NCBI GenBank assembly: GCA_025765595.1
Contig: JAIVFH010000145.1
Span: 1 to 64,000, forward strand
Direction: 5' to 3'
Length of the DNA: 64,000 nt
Source: Obelidium mucronatum
Lineage: Eukaryota > Chytridiomycota > Chytridiomycetes > Chytridiales > Chytriomycetaceae
Part shown: positions 18,127 through 41,040 of the stretch, one piece after another
Position numbering within the stretch: the first letter of the stretch is position 1
Layout: every line of letters starts with the position of its first letter
The notes under the pieces: generated by a model
Seen by the model: the letters and a program-made list of their open reading frames with translations, nothing else
The model's database searches: none
Told to the model about the DNA's origin: nothing
Made by a program: the position numbers and the translations under genes

Positions 18127-21100
18127 ATGGAACGACCGCCGTCATTCGTATCTTGTTCGTTAGTACCACGCGACCAGCAAAGCAGCAGCAGCGGAAGCAT
18201 TTCACTTCTTGCGTCTTCACACAAGGGAACATTGTTTTTGTGCAGTTCAAGCGGGGTTTTGTCTCTGGTGGGGCACTCGCCATCGTTGGACCAAGTATTT
18301 CGATGGCAGCCGCATGAAGCATCGCTGGTGCAACTCGTACAGCACCGCAATGTATTGTGCACAGTCGGGGTGAGTCGGGGGGGTATAAGTTTGAATGGCA
18401 ATGGAGTGCTTTGCCAACTGCAAAAACAAAAAAAAACCCAGGACGATGCCTCTGGCGTGCCGATACTCAAGCTGTGGAATCTCGACAAGAGCGACAAGGA
18501 CACGGGGATCCCGCTGCTCATCCGGTCTTTTACGATCCAAGTCAAGAACAAAGTGTTTCCGGTAAGAAAGTTCTTTGAAGAAATCTTTTAATCAAAAAAG
18601 CGCACAGGTCACCGCGCTCGCGGCCACGGACGCGTTTTCGCAGATCGCCGTCGGGCTCGAGAACGGCGTCGTGCTGCTCGCGCGCGGCGACCTGGCGAAT
18701 GCAACGCGCGCAAGCAGCCACTTTGGCGTTTTGTTCGAGGCCGAGTCGCGCGTGGCGGCGCTCGGCTTTGGCGGCGCGCGGCTGTTTGCCGCGACGGCGG
18801 CCGCCGTGTTTGCGTTCGACACGGCGCTCGACGCGTCGGCGGCGTCTAAAGAAGTATTCTTTTTTTTTTCTTTTTCTTTTTCTTTTTCATTTTTCTTTTT
18901 CTTTTTTCTTTTTTCTTTTCTTTTTCGTTTCTTTCTTTTCTTTTCTTTTTCTTTTCTTTTTCTTTTCTTTTTCTTTTCTTTTTCTTTTCTTTTAATTTGA
19001 TGACAAGATCAAACTCGACGCCGTCGGCGCGGACCCGCGCTGCGCAATCGTCACTCCGCCAGGCGACCCGTGCGCTGCAATGGTCGTGGCAAGAACTGAC
19101 GGCATCTACTTTTACGACTGCAACGGCCGCGGCGCGTGCTTCATGATTGAAGGTTTGTCAGTTTTAATTCTGCACTTGTTGTTCTTCTTTTTCATATATT
19201 CTTTTATCTATCCAGGCGAAAAAACTCTCATCCAGTGGTTCAAAAAGTATCTGGTCGTTGTATCGCGTCCACCTGCTCATCAGAGGCGACAAGGACACGG
19301 GAATACTGCTACATCTTCTCTTCTTGCGTCTGTTTCTGCCATTTCAAACAACCATCAACGTCGATCTTCTTCTGAATTCGATGATGATGATGATGAATTC
19401 GATCATTTACAGAAACTGGGAACTATTTTGACTATATATGATTTGCGATGCAAATTGATTGCTTTTCAAGGCTCTTTTGAGGGTCTTTCTGGTTCTGGCT
19501 CTGGTGCTGCGAGAGTTGGTGGTGGTATTTTGAGTGTGGCTACCGAATGGGATGAACTCTTTGTTTTGACTGCTGATCAAAAGGTTTTTTTATATCCGCC
19601 GAAGGCGGTGTCTCACGCCGAAGGCGTGTCTTTTCTTTGTTTCCTACTTTTCTTTTCCGTTCTTTTCGTTTCTTTCTTTGTTTCCCCTTCTTTTTGTTGC
19701 TTCATCGCTTTTATCCATACATGGAATGATGTACATACATCCATCCACATACATCCATCCAGAAGTATTAACCATACAACATGTAGATCTACCGCCTCGA
19801 AGAAAAAGACATGTCCACCAAACTTGAACTTCTCTATTCGAAAAACATGTATACTTTAGCACTGTCCCTCATATCTTCTCCACCAAACAGCGTCCTACCT
19901 TACCCCACAACATCCTCTAAACCAAAGAACCCAGACGACTCTCAAAGCTCCATATCCATCCTCTCCCCAACAACACCATCAAACAGACCAGCCCTCGACC
20001 CCGAATCCAAATCCCACAAAAACGAAATCCACAAACGATACGCCGACCACCTCTACAACAACTCAGAATTCTCCCAAGCAATGACCCAATACCTGCACAC
20101 AATCGGCCACCTCGAACCCAGCTACGTTATCCGCAAATACCTAGACGCCCAACGAATCCACCTCCTCGTAACCTACCTCCAACGCCTGCACAACAACAAC
20201 AACAACCACGCCTCCAAAAACCACCCAAACCTGGCCACCCCCGACCACACAACCCTCCTCATCAACTGCTACACAAAACTCAACGCCAGCAGCGAATTAG
20301 ACGCATTCCTACGCCGCGAAGACGTTGTTTTTGACGTGGACACGGCGATCCGCGTGTGTCGGTCCGCCGGGTTCTACACGCACGCACTGTACTTGGCAGA
20401 CCGGTTCGGCGTGCATGAATGGTACCTCCACGTGATGGTTGAAGATTTGGGACGGTATGAAGAGACTGTTGGGTATATCATGGGGTTAGCGCCGCGTGAG
20501 ATGGAAGCGTGTTTGAGGCGGTATGGGCATGTTTTGGTGCGTGAGATGGTTGGAGCGATGGTGGATGTGTTGGTTGTGTTGTGTACGACTGAGAGGAGGG
20601 TTGGGGATGAGGAGGATAGTAGTACGAATAGTTTGGTTTTGGGGGCTGCTGGTGGTGGTGGTGGTGGTGGTGGTGTTGGAGGGGGGGAGGAAGATGATTC
20701 AATGAGTAGTAGTGCGGTGTTGAAGCATGGGATGGGTGGGATGGTGTTGATGGGAAGTAACAAGAAACGGCAAAATGCGGCGGTGGGGGATGATGGAGGA
20801 GGAGGAAAAGATGTCATTAAGGAGGAAGAGACCACGCGGGTTCCCTTTGCTGAGGATTTTATACACTTGTTTGTAGATATGGATGAATGGTGTGTTGTAT
20901 TTCTGGAGAGGGTGATTGAAATTCGATGGGGGATCGCGTTTGATGGCAAGTTGCCTGGCGGTGGTGGCGGTAGTACCAAGAAGGAAGTGATTGTGATGGA
21001 TGAAGGTGATGAAGCGAGTTTGAATGTTATTTGCAACACGCTTCTGGAAATGTATTTGAGTTTGTCGAGGAGTAGTAGTGGGGAAGTGGAAGGTGAGGAA

Positions 21101-38178: not shown

Positions 38179-41040
38179 ATGATGAGCGTAACCACACGGA
38201 CAGGCGGAGCATCGGACTCGCAAATCCTGCTGTTTGAGGTACGTGTGTTGTGAACGAGGGAGGGGTGGAGGGACTGGGTGGTCTAACCAAGAGACTTGTA
38301 GATTGCGTGGGAAGTGGCAAACAAGGTTGGCGGCATCTACACTGTGATCAAGACAAAGGTGCCAGTGACTGTGGCCGAGTACGGCGACCGCTACTGCCTG
38401 ATTGGGCCGCTGTCGTACAAGGTGATGTTTGTTGTTTGTGTGCAGCCTTATCTGTTTTGACTCCTAGCGAACGCCTAACAAAACTCCGAACAAACACAGA
38501 CGGCGCACCTCGAAGTCGACCCGATCGCCGACGACGCCATCGAGAGCGAGGCGCTGCGCAAGACGCTTGCGAACCTCAAGCAGCGCGGCATCCGCTACCT
38601 GTACGGCCGCTGGCTGACCGACGGCAACCCGCGCGTGCTGCTGTTTGATGTTGGCAGTGCGCACCACCGCATGAACGAGGTTTCTTTTTTTTTTTTTTTT
38701 TTTGGTTGGGGTGATCGTACTGATGCAAAACAACACAGTGGAAGGCAGATCTGTGGCAGACAGCAGGCATCCCATCGCCCCCCGATGACCACGAAACAAA
38801 CGAAGCCATCGTGTTTGGCTACCTGGTGGCATGGTTCCTCGGAGAGATCAAACACACCTACGATGCTCTGGTACGCTGTCCCAGTGACTCATTCCACCCC
38901 CACAATCCATTAAAACAAAATACCAATCAAACGATCAAATAGGCCCCTACAGTTGCTCAAAGACCTCACTTGATTGCACACTTTCATGAATGGCTTGTCG
39001 GTGTTGCTCTTGTTCTCCTCAGAAAGAGAAACTTTGATATTGCCACCGTCTTTACTACCCATGCTACACTTCTTGGAAGATATCTCTGTGCAGGAGATGT
39101 CGACTTTTACAACAATTTGAAGTACTTTGATGTCGATGCCGAAGCAGGAAAACGTGGAATTTACCATCGTTATTGTATTGAACGTGCTGCTACTCATTGT
39201 GCTGATGTGTTTACCACTGTTTCTCATATTACTGCGTATGAGTCCGAATGGTTATTGAAGAGAAAGCCTGGTAAGGATCATTGCTGAAGTGTTATGCCGC
39301 AGGCGGGACTCTTTTTTTTTGTCAACCGCCGAAAGCGGCGAATACTCTTATGACTACTGCCGAAGGCGGAGAATATACTTTTACTCTTCCTTTTTTCCCA
39401 TCTAAACAAACAACAACACACACAACAGACGGAGTCCTTCCAAACGGATTAAACGTGGTCAAATTCAGTGCATTGCATGAGTTCCAAAACTTACATGCAA
39501 AGAGCAAGGACAAGATTACCGAATTTGTCCGTGGTCACTTTTATGGGCACTTGGACTTTGACTTGGACAACACCTTGTACTTTTTCACTGCCGGCAGATA
39601 TGAATACCGTAACAAGGGTGTTGACATGTTTATCGAATCTTTGGCCCGTAAGTAGCTTTTGTTGCCATCGAAGGCGTTTGATTATCCTCTTCTTGACTTC
39701 CATATTTTTTTATTGCCTTTCAACTGACTTTCACTCTCTTAGGCCTCAACCACCGCTTAAAATCACAAAACTCCAAGACAACGGTTGTTGCCTTCATCAT
39801 CATGCCTGCAAAGACACATAGTTACACTGTTGAAGCACTCAAGGGTCAAGCCGTCATGAAGCAACTCCGTGACACAATTAACGAAGTGCAAAACAACATT
39901 GGAAAGCGTCTCTTTGAACAAGCCGCCAAGGGAAAATTCCCAACTGACCCGAAATCCATGATCCTTGATGAAGATCTTGTCCACCTCAAGCGCCGTATCT
40001 TTGCATTGAAGCGTGACAGTCTCCCGCCCATTGTCACCCACAACCTCGTTGATGATGCAACAGACCCGATCCTGAACCAAATTCGAAGCGTTCGTCTCTT
40101 CAACGATGAAAGCGATCGCGTCAAGATTATTTTCCACCCTGAATTCCTGAACAGCAACAACCCAGTCCTTGGAATGGATTACGAAGAGTTTGTCCGTGGT
40201 TGTCACTTGGGAGTCTTCCCTAGTTACTATGAGCCATGGGGTTACACCCCCGGAGAGTGCACAGTCATGGGTGTCCCATCGATCACAACAAACCTGTCTG
40301 GTTTCGGTTGCTTCATGGAAGAAATGATTTCGATCCCAAGCGATTACGGTATCTACATTGTGGATCGTCGAATGAAGTCTGTGGATGAGTCGTGTGAGCA
40401 ATTAGCGTCCTACATGGACGACTTCTGCTCCAAAACCCGTCGTCAAAGAATTAACCAACGTAACCGTACTGAACGTCTCTCAGACCTACTAGACTGGAAG
40501 CGTATGGGTCTCGACTACGTCAAGGCTCGATGGGTTGCTTTGCGTCGCAAGTTTCCTGAATTTGCTGCCGAATTGCAAAGACAGCAAGATTTGGAAGACG
40601 GCGAGGAAGTTGACTCTGATGATGAAGAAGTAGCAGCGAGACTGCGTGTCCAAATCCCAGAAGGAGAGCTGGGCCACGGATACGAAAGTGACGGTAACCC
40701 AATGATCCAAAACAGTGGAGATTTGAGCTCGTTGCGATACAATGCCAAGGTTCCGCGTCCAGCATCGGTCCCGGGAAGCCCGAAGCTGTTCAAGTCGTTT
40801 GCAACCGCCAACGATGATGAAGACGATGAGGAAAAGAGAATCGCTACAAACTCGAACCCAGCTGGTTTGTTTTACGATGCTGGACCAGATGGATATGACG
40901 AAGAGTACTTGCAGAGTGGAGCTGTTCACGGGAAAGTGGATGTCAACTCTGTGATGGCGAGTTTGAAGGCGATGGGGTTGAAAGGAACTAGCTCTGACTA
41001 TGCACCGCCACAGCAAAACTCTTCTGTTGGGGATCCATGA
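38179..41040 (+). CDS. GSY: Glycogen synthase (GT3), 7 exons
   Basis: Exons 38179-38238, 38302-38421, 38500-38679, 38739-38870, 38943-39270, 39429-39647, 39743-41040; in phase, 778 residues. Family marks: IAWEVANKVGGIYTVIKTK near the start (donor-sugar Lys region), HFHEWLVGVALVLLRKR, TVFTTHATLLGRYL, TAGRYEYRNKGVDMFIESLA and the PSYYEPWGYTPGECTVMGVPS block with the catalytic Glu pair. A C-terminal tail rich in Ser, Asp and Glu with Arg-rich RRMKSVDES/KTRRQRINQRNRTERLSDLLDW resembles the regulated phosphorylation and glucose-6-phosphate region of fungal and animal enzymes. It elongates cytosolic glycogen from UDP-glucose. Intron 5 (39271-39428) contains eroded GNA-loop hairpins. Confidence 0.96.
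39290..39376 (+). repeat. Eroded GNA-loop hairpins in glycogen synthase intron 5
   Basis: ATGCCGCAGGCGGG (loop GCA), ACCGCCGAAAGCGGCG (loop GAA with a stem mismatch) and TGCCGAAGGCGGAG (loop GAA, shortened stem), with pyrimidine spacers. The same sense orientation as the intact arrays. Confidence 0.65.

Follow-up and report, generated by a model that had tools for sequence, protein, structure and literature searches.

Sense-oriented GNA-loop hairpin repeats form a dispersed family in predicted introns of the chytrid Obelidium mucronatum

Introduction

To our knowledge, short palindromic hairpin repeats are known mainly from organelles. Here we describe a repeat family whose core is the palindrome CCGCC-GNA-GGCGG, found in a 64 kb stretch (45% G+C) of the zoosporic fungus Obelidium mucronatum (assembly GCA_025765595.1, contig JAIVFH010000145.1, positions 1 to 64,000), referred to below as the window, and then followed through the genome assembly. 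The copies described here occupy introns of nuclear-type genes, VPS11 and glycogen synthase among them, rather than organelle DNA, which the assembly appears to leave out. Short palindromic repeats have been described in the organelles of Allomyces, Volvox, Fusarium and others, as far as the available text of two reports goes (PMC2670323, PMC7218506). The double-hairpin elements of Allomyces are likewise dispersed short hairpin repeats of a zoosporic fungus and have been proposed to be mobile (2000; cited in PMC7218506), but as excerpted there they are mitochondrial and carry two hairpins per element, whereas each Obelidium unit has one GNA hairpin and a pyrimidine spacer, and the units stand in tandem, in sense only, in predicted spliceosomal introns. 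The kinship with these elements that had been raised in the first-pass annotation of this DNA is therefore not established. The short palindromic repeats of Volvox carteri share loops of 3-5 nt, a location in introns and spacers and an interpretation as selfish DNA; they are organellar, however, with loops that are mostly TAAA or TTTA, their nuclear copies, which make up about 0.06% of the nuclear DNA, have been interpreted as inert transfers, and the available text mentions no strand rule (PMC2670323), in contrast to the sense-only Obelidium family.

Three further systems are comparable in part. Fungal introner-like elements, including the sister introns and stwintrons of Hypoxylaceae, are repeated, symmetrical introns that work on the coding strand only, a property shared by all 30 introns reported here, but as described in the available text they are whole introns with splice sites (PMC8469720), whereas what repeats in Obelidium is a stretch of about 30 nt within introns that otherwise have nothing in common. 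Minisatellites resemble the family in their tandem units (in the window 20, 34 and 42 bp long) and in copy number that varies between near-identical contigs; they differ in that a single oriented palindromic unit recurs here across many unrelated introns. DNA mini-hairpins with a GNA loop closed by a C-G pair are reported to be unusually stable, GAA melting about 6 degrees above GTA (Yoshizawa et al. 1997, as cited in PMC6479982). They are a physical motif of oligonucleotides, while the Obelidium repeat is a genomic element whose hairpin is predicted. A search of the open-licence literature returned no account of a hairpin family that resides in introns of nuclear genes in sense orientation only.

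Results

The window contains 27 exact CCGCC-NNN-GGCGG palindromes, 26 of which have a GNA loop on one strand while the remaining one, at 37870, has the loop TTT (AAA on the other strand), besides one perfect variant, CACGCC-GAA-GGCGTG, at 19614. When up to two mismatches were allowed, 60 matches were found, against a mean of 10.91 in 100 shuffles (standard deviation 3.56, largest value 23). Every GNA copy lies within five predicted introns of four genes, namely VPS11, FAM72, an RGS-domain gene and glycogen synthase, and for every core of these introns the sense-strand loop is GAA, GTA or GCA, also in FAM72, which is encoded on the minus strand. The first-pass annotation had thus read the location and the loops correctly, but its figure of over 30 was slightly high for perfect ones.

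Genome-wide counts were obtained from the whole assembly of 48.3 Mb in 694 contigs, with the pattern read backwards as a control. CCGCC-GNA-GGCGG occurs 2,983 times, compared with 9 for the reversed pattern, and with any loop the core occurs 3,358 times, compared with 78. Chance or base composition as a source of the palindromes is ruled out by these controls together with the shuffles. GNA loops closed by a C-G pair make up 2,983 of the 3,358 core palindromes (89%), where random loops would give 12.5% (8/64), so that loops other than GNA do not occur at a similar rate. The GNA copies comprise 239 with GCA, 132 with GGA and, by subtraction, 2,612 with GAA or GTA. Among 204 intact-core copies the loops were GAA in 141, GTA in 47, GGA in 9 and GCA in 7; the middle base is variable and the outer two rarely so, subfamily amplification inflating such counts. 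The loop reported as stabler, GAA, is also commoner here than GTA, and stabilisation of the DNA hairpin is the probable reason why the GNA loop persists. Energy models gave the same DNA value for every loop among those printed and so leave the GNA preference unexplained; stability, to which the first-pass annotation had pointed, is not established as its cause. In other collections the pattern search gave no match in viral sequences and three single matches in prokaryote genomes. A search with a reading frame that spans an array found no similar protein. GCA-loop hairpins form a run over 2.8 kb of genome contig 22 (331108-333956), spaced by about 78 bp, and a higher-order pattern on genome contig 56 (159382-161153).

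On contigs 1-4 (3.44 Mb), every exact copy was listed irrespective of genes and all 17 clusters were taken. Fifteen lie in predicted introns, two are intergenic and none is exonic, which speaks against an equal density in introns and in intergenic DNA, and in all 15 intronic clusters it is the sense strand that carries GNA. Together with the intron of locus L031, the five of the window, four at L032 and L033 and five at L037-L041, 30 predicted introns were oriented, and in all 30 the sense strand is the GNA strand, as judged by the majority of their hairpins, instead of the two strands sharing the copies equally. At L040 and in the left intron of L033 most hairpins, but not all, are in sense. 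Intron prediction combined reading frames and Pfam domains with splice motifs judged by eye and a hexamer model trained on the same loci, glycogen synthase being the one intron compared with an annotated protein; acceptors proposed by an automatic scan frequently lay too far away, and others were chosen by eye in their place. Above-cut-off Pfam domains on the flanking frames support seven of the 15 intronic clusters on contigs 1-4 (L017, L019, L021, L022, L025, L026 and L028) and include protein phosphatase, glycosyl hydrolase 35, Ndc80, kelch, ClpS-domain, ABC transporter and RhoGAP; the other eight were assigned from coding score and splice motifs. The gene at L031 encodes a protein kinase according to Pfam. 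Coding scores scarcely separated the strands at L022 (11.0 vs 9.9), where the strand was assigned from the kelch domain, and at L032 three of four exon stretches scored clearly or slightly for the expected strand, with one tie.

A crude splice-site scan, which looked for GTGAGT at most 30 nt upstream of a hairpin, returned 33 sense rows and 11 antisense rows. The five loci L037-L041 cover six of these 11 rows, and L043 and L044, which account for two further rows, are on contigs near-identical to two of these loci; C133, C135 and C432 were left out. The coding strand proved to be the opposite one at all five loci, with above-cut-off Pfam support at L037 and L039, and the arrays there are therefore in sense after all. 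As a test of orientation the scan was discarded.

Single hairpins and their positions were compiled for 24 introns, of which 23 have countable hairpins with a stem of at least 4 bp; the hairpins of glycogen synthase fall below this criterion, no acceptor was set for the minus-strand intron of L032 and the plus-strand intron of L033, and the minus-strand intron of L033 was left out. The 23 introns contain 191 hairpins, from 1 to more than 20 each, with sense-strand loops of GNA in 175, TNC in 5, AAA in 6, GAC in 3, ATA in 1 and TTT in 1, inverted hairpins amounting to 5/191. The first hairpin begins 8-45 nt past the donor, and in the 21 introns with both an acceptor and countable hairpins the last one ends 48-158 nt ahead of the acceptor; in the second intron of L029, for instance, which is 199 nt long, the last core lies 118 nt before the acceptor. 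The arrays are thus placed in the 5' part of the predicted introns, past the donor and far ahead of the acceptor, where an insertion should do the intron least harm.

The weighted consensus of the repeated unit is approximately TTTTTCATAC-CGCC-GNA-GGCG-GTGTATTCTTTT, with one hairpin and with most flank positions conserved at 40-70%. The pyrimidine tract and the CAT that had been noticed ahead of the element both belong to this unit. When one copy per intron was taken, the flanks held 6.7 bits of information, compared with 3.0 for shuffled flanks (at most 4.7). Same-strand matches were found in 150 of 210 intron pairs and opposite-strand matches in 17, but after the arrays had been masked similarity was left in one pair of the 210 on the same strand and in none on the opposite strand. 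Shared, oriented flanks in introns that are otherwise dissimilar indicate that an oriented unit of about 30 nt has been dispersed and then amplified in place, within otherwise unrelated introns. Outside the arrays, which range from one unit to about 1 kb, the remainder of the introns is of ordinary length (median 122 nt). The intron at L019, of 1,005 nt, shows how growth to about 1 kb is possible with a non-repeat part that stays at ordinary length.

Covariation in the stem, which had also been seen at the outset in the outer pairs, was borne out by copy counts and is strong at pair 3. At stem pair 3, the 2,983 G-C copies are accompanied by 47 with A.C, 45 with G.T and 65 with a compensated A-T pair, compared with 4, 4 and 5 for the reversed-pattern controls, and the single mismatches predict about 0.7 doubles instead of the 65 observed. 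These 65 copies are spread over 27 places (counted by eye), so that tandem copying is not a sufficient account of them. Watson-Crick pairs are present in 184 of 204 copies at pair 5 and in 145 of 204 at pair 6, compared with 133.5 and 92.3 expected. Such covariation fits selection on a hairpin and correction of the palindrome by template switching alike.

Near-identical stretches were noticed on separate contigs (4 and 344, 11 and 554, 7 and 249, 13 and 388), which seem to be both alleles or recent duplicates within the assembly. Among near-identical contig pairs, three of four differ in their hairpin arrays, and every compared site keeps some hairpin. Contigs 4 and 344 have 18 mismatches over 1,280 aligned bases, and their arrays differ by a 20-bp unit and by further changes. 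In addition, L032 and L033 are two divergent gene pairs, and within each pair the two arrays are inverted near-copies, 90% identical over 112 bp in one pair and 93% over 101 bp in the other; every one of these arrays is in sense to its own gene. Where two clusters of opposite orientation lie less than about 3 kb apart, they looked, by eye and among the matches listed, mostly divergent and not convergent, those on contigs 19 and 278 looking convergent.

Splice models built from 21 introns were used to scan the arrays. At the lower-quartile threshold, 12 acceptor-like sites appear in the reversed arrays (5,174 nt), and at the median three; in sense there is none. GAAGAA, a splicing enhancer motif, occurs 21 times in the reversed arrays and not at all in sense. 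The sense rule is probably best explained by splicing, antisense copies having been removed because they would bring acceptor-like sites and purine-rich motifs into the intron.

Within the window, tandem-repeat analysis gave array periods of about 20, 34 and 42 bp. The predicted intron of VPS11 (19584..19786, plus strand, from the coding strand and the intron compilation) has two hairpins, 19596-19608 and 19614-19628, both with GAA in sense and the first beginning 12 nt past the donor, and its flanking frames match Pfam PEP5_VPS11_N and TPR_PEP5_VPS11. The predicted intron of FAM72 (28682..28965, minus strand, assigned by Pfam YPEH2ZP on that strand) has five hairpins from 28790 to 28951 with a period of about 42 bp and with loops GTA, GAA, GAA, GCA and GCA in sense. 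The RGS gene, whose RGS domain was found by Pfam in the reading frame 31037-32164, has two hairpin-bearing introns on the plus strand: 30362..30760, with ten exact GNA hairpins and one mismatched at 30542 in an array at 30403-30654, and 31070..31541, with ten GAA hairpins at a period of about 34 bp in an array at 31079-31402. The glycogen synthase intron (39271..39428, plus strand) has three imperfect hairpins (39294-39306, 39326-39338 and 39357-39369) with loops GCA, GAA and GAA in sense. The annotated glycogen synthase of Obelidium mucronatum, P0001 (778 amino acids), matches the window exons with two real differences and leaves out exactly 39271-39428; this hairpin intron is therefore removed in the public gene model. 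A palindrome at 37869..37883 with an AAA loop on the minus strand (TTT on plus) was not counted as a family member.

Three other observations were made by the way. At L016, the stretch 5600-6700 has an intergenic cluster (6098-6150) that lies, by eye, between the end of a minus-strand ankyrin-region gene and a damaged copy of that gene's last exons. At L028, a small palindrome cluster at 6707-6786, which seems to lie outside any gene, comprises AAA-loop copies together with CACGCC-GAA-GGCGTG variants and is possibly a decayed or sister subfamily. Finally, at window positions 631-2956 a 99-bp unit is repeated head to tail about 23.5 times within a reading frame of 911 amino acids, and the unit resembles ankyrin-type repeats by eye.

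Discussion

The presence of GNA palindromes in introns is confirmed. The first-pass description of a structured, copy-amplifying, intron-resident element with a strong transcript-direction bias agrees with the 30 introns, its interpretation as a mobile element is partly supported, and transposition of the hairpin itself is not established. MITEs and other DNA transposons are marked by terminal inverted repeats with target-site duplications, and the Obelidium unit is a palindrome in itself. We favour, at a probability of about one half, a dispersed family of oriented palindromic repeats whose intron arrays, in sense in each of the 30 introns, would multiply in the manner of a selfish minisatellite, through DNA-level copying. 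One DNA strand would fold into the GNA hairpin, and slippage or template switching at the hairpin would add, remove and re-perfect units, so that arrays could grow in tandem, stems become perfect and a loop be inverted now and then. Conversion-like copying may seed introns nearby, and the survivors would be only those sense copies that lie past the donor and well ahead of the acceptor. Several observations weigh against this reading. The splicing argument cuts both ways, since the arrays hold 21 donor-like sites in sense and one when reversed. The near-identical pair L038/L043 shows no hairpin difference, and both intergenic clusters of contigs 1-4, at L016, point opposite to the neighbouring genes. 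At stem pair 2, T.G (98, reversed-pattern control 12) exceeds C.A (57, control 7), which may point to pairing in the sense RNA or to a mutation bias between the strands. Furthermore, strand folding, copying and the effect on splicing are deduced from sequence, in introns that are predicted.

The excess of T.G at pair 2 is what might be expected if the hairpins acted as RNA within the pre-mRNA, joining splice sites, hiding cryptic ones or binding a protein that reads the GNA loop, with selection on splicing keeping both sense and stem. Exclusive sense orientation, arrays that begin a short distance past the donor and the stem covariation would all suit such a role. Pair 3, however, shows no wobble preference, G.T and A.C being even, copy number per intron ranges widely and differs between near-identical contigs, and introns free of hairpins exist in the same gene, such as three in glycogen synthase of about 63-78 nt each; we consider an RNA role unlikely. 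Sense orientation without any selection against antisense copies could also arise if copying were locked to transcription or to RNA, through a hairpin on the non-template strand or through reverse-transcribed intron RNA. The lack of a single antisense intron among the 30 speaks for this, as do the introns with one or two hairpins that are also in sense (L021-L024, L027, L039) and the inverted copies that come out in sense in divergent neighbours, whereas the two intergenic clusters have no known sense transcript, and no hallmark or intermediate of reverse transcription came to light, though no search was aimed at one. This explanation, too, we consider unlikely.

Two other sources are far less probable. 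Copying of entire introns, splice sites included, would account for repeated, structured, sense-only intron sequence of the kind described for fungal introner-like elements in the available text of PMC8469720, but the single similar pair left among 210 after masking and the variable arrays within remainders of ordinary length are hard to reconcile with it; as no near-identical whole introns were seen, introners were rejected. A very improbable origin, likewise, is that of mitochondrial hairpin repeats transferred to the nucleus and later spread or decayed there. Short hairpin repeats are known in organelles, and Volvox has related nuclear copies, but those are often degenerate and inert, so far as the available text of PMC2670323 tells, whereas most core palindromes here stand in oriented, intron-restricted arrays. 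A COX1 search of the assembly gave no match, and the mitochondrial genome was therefore apparently left out of it.

Were copying in fact locked to the direction of transcription, which we hold as a tentative idea well behind the selfish minisatellite, the family would represent a new class of mobile repeat, in which the intron's non-template strand, being exposed, would form the GNA hairpin that serves as copying intermediate and new copies would arise only in sense, spreading from intron to intron and even into a divergently transcribed neighbour. With about 3,000 exact-core copies, mostly intronic and in sense wherever an intron was oriented, the family would offer a clean natural system for learning whether a DNA hairpin can bring about its own copying inside a cell, whether transcription exposes the folding strand and how splicing filters the residents of introns.

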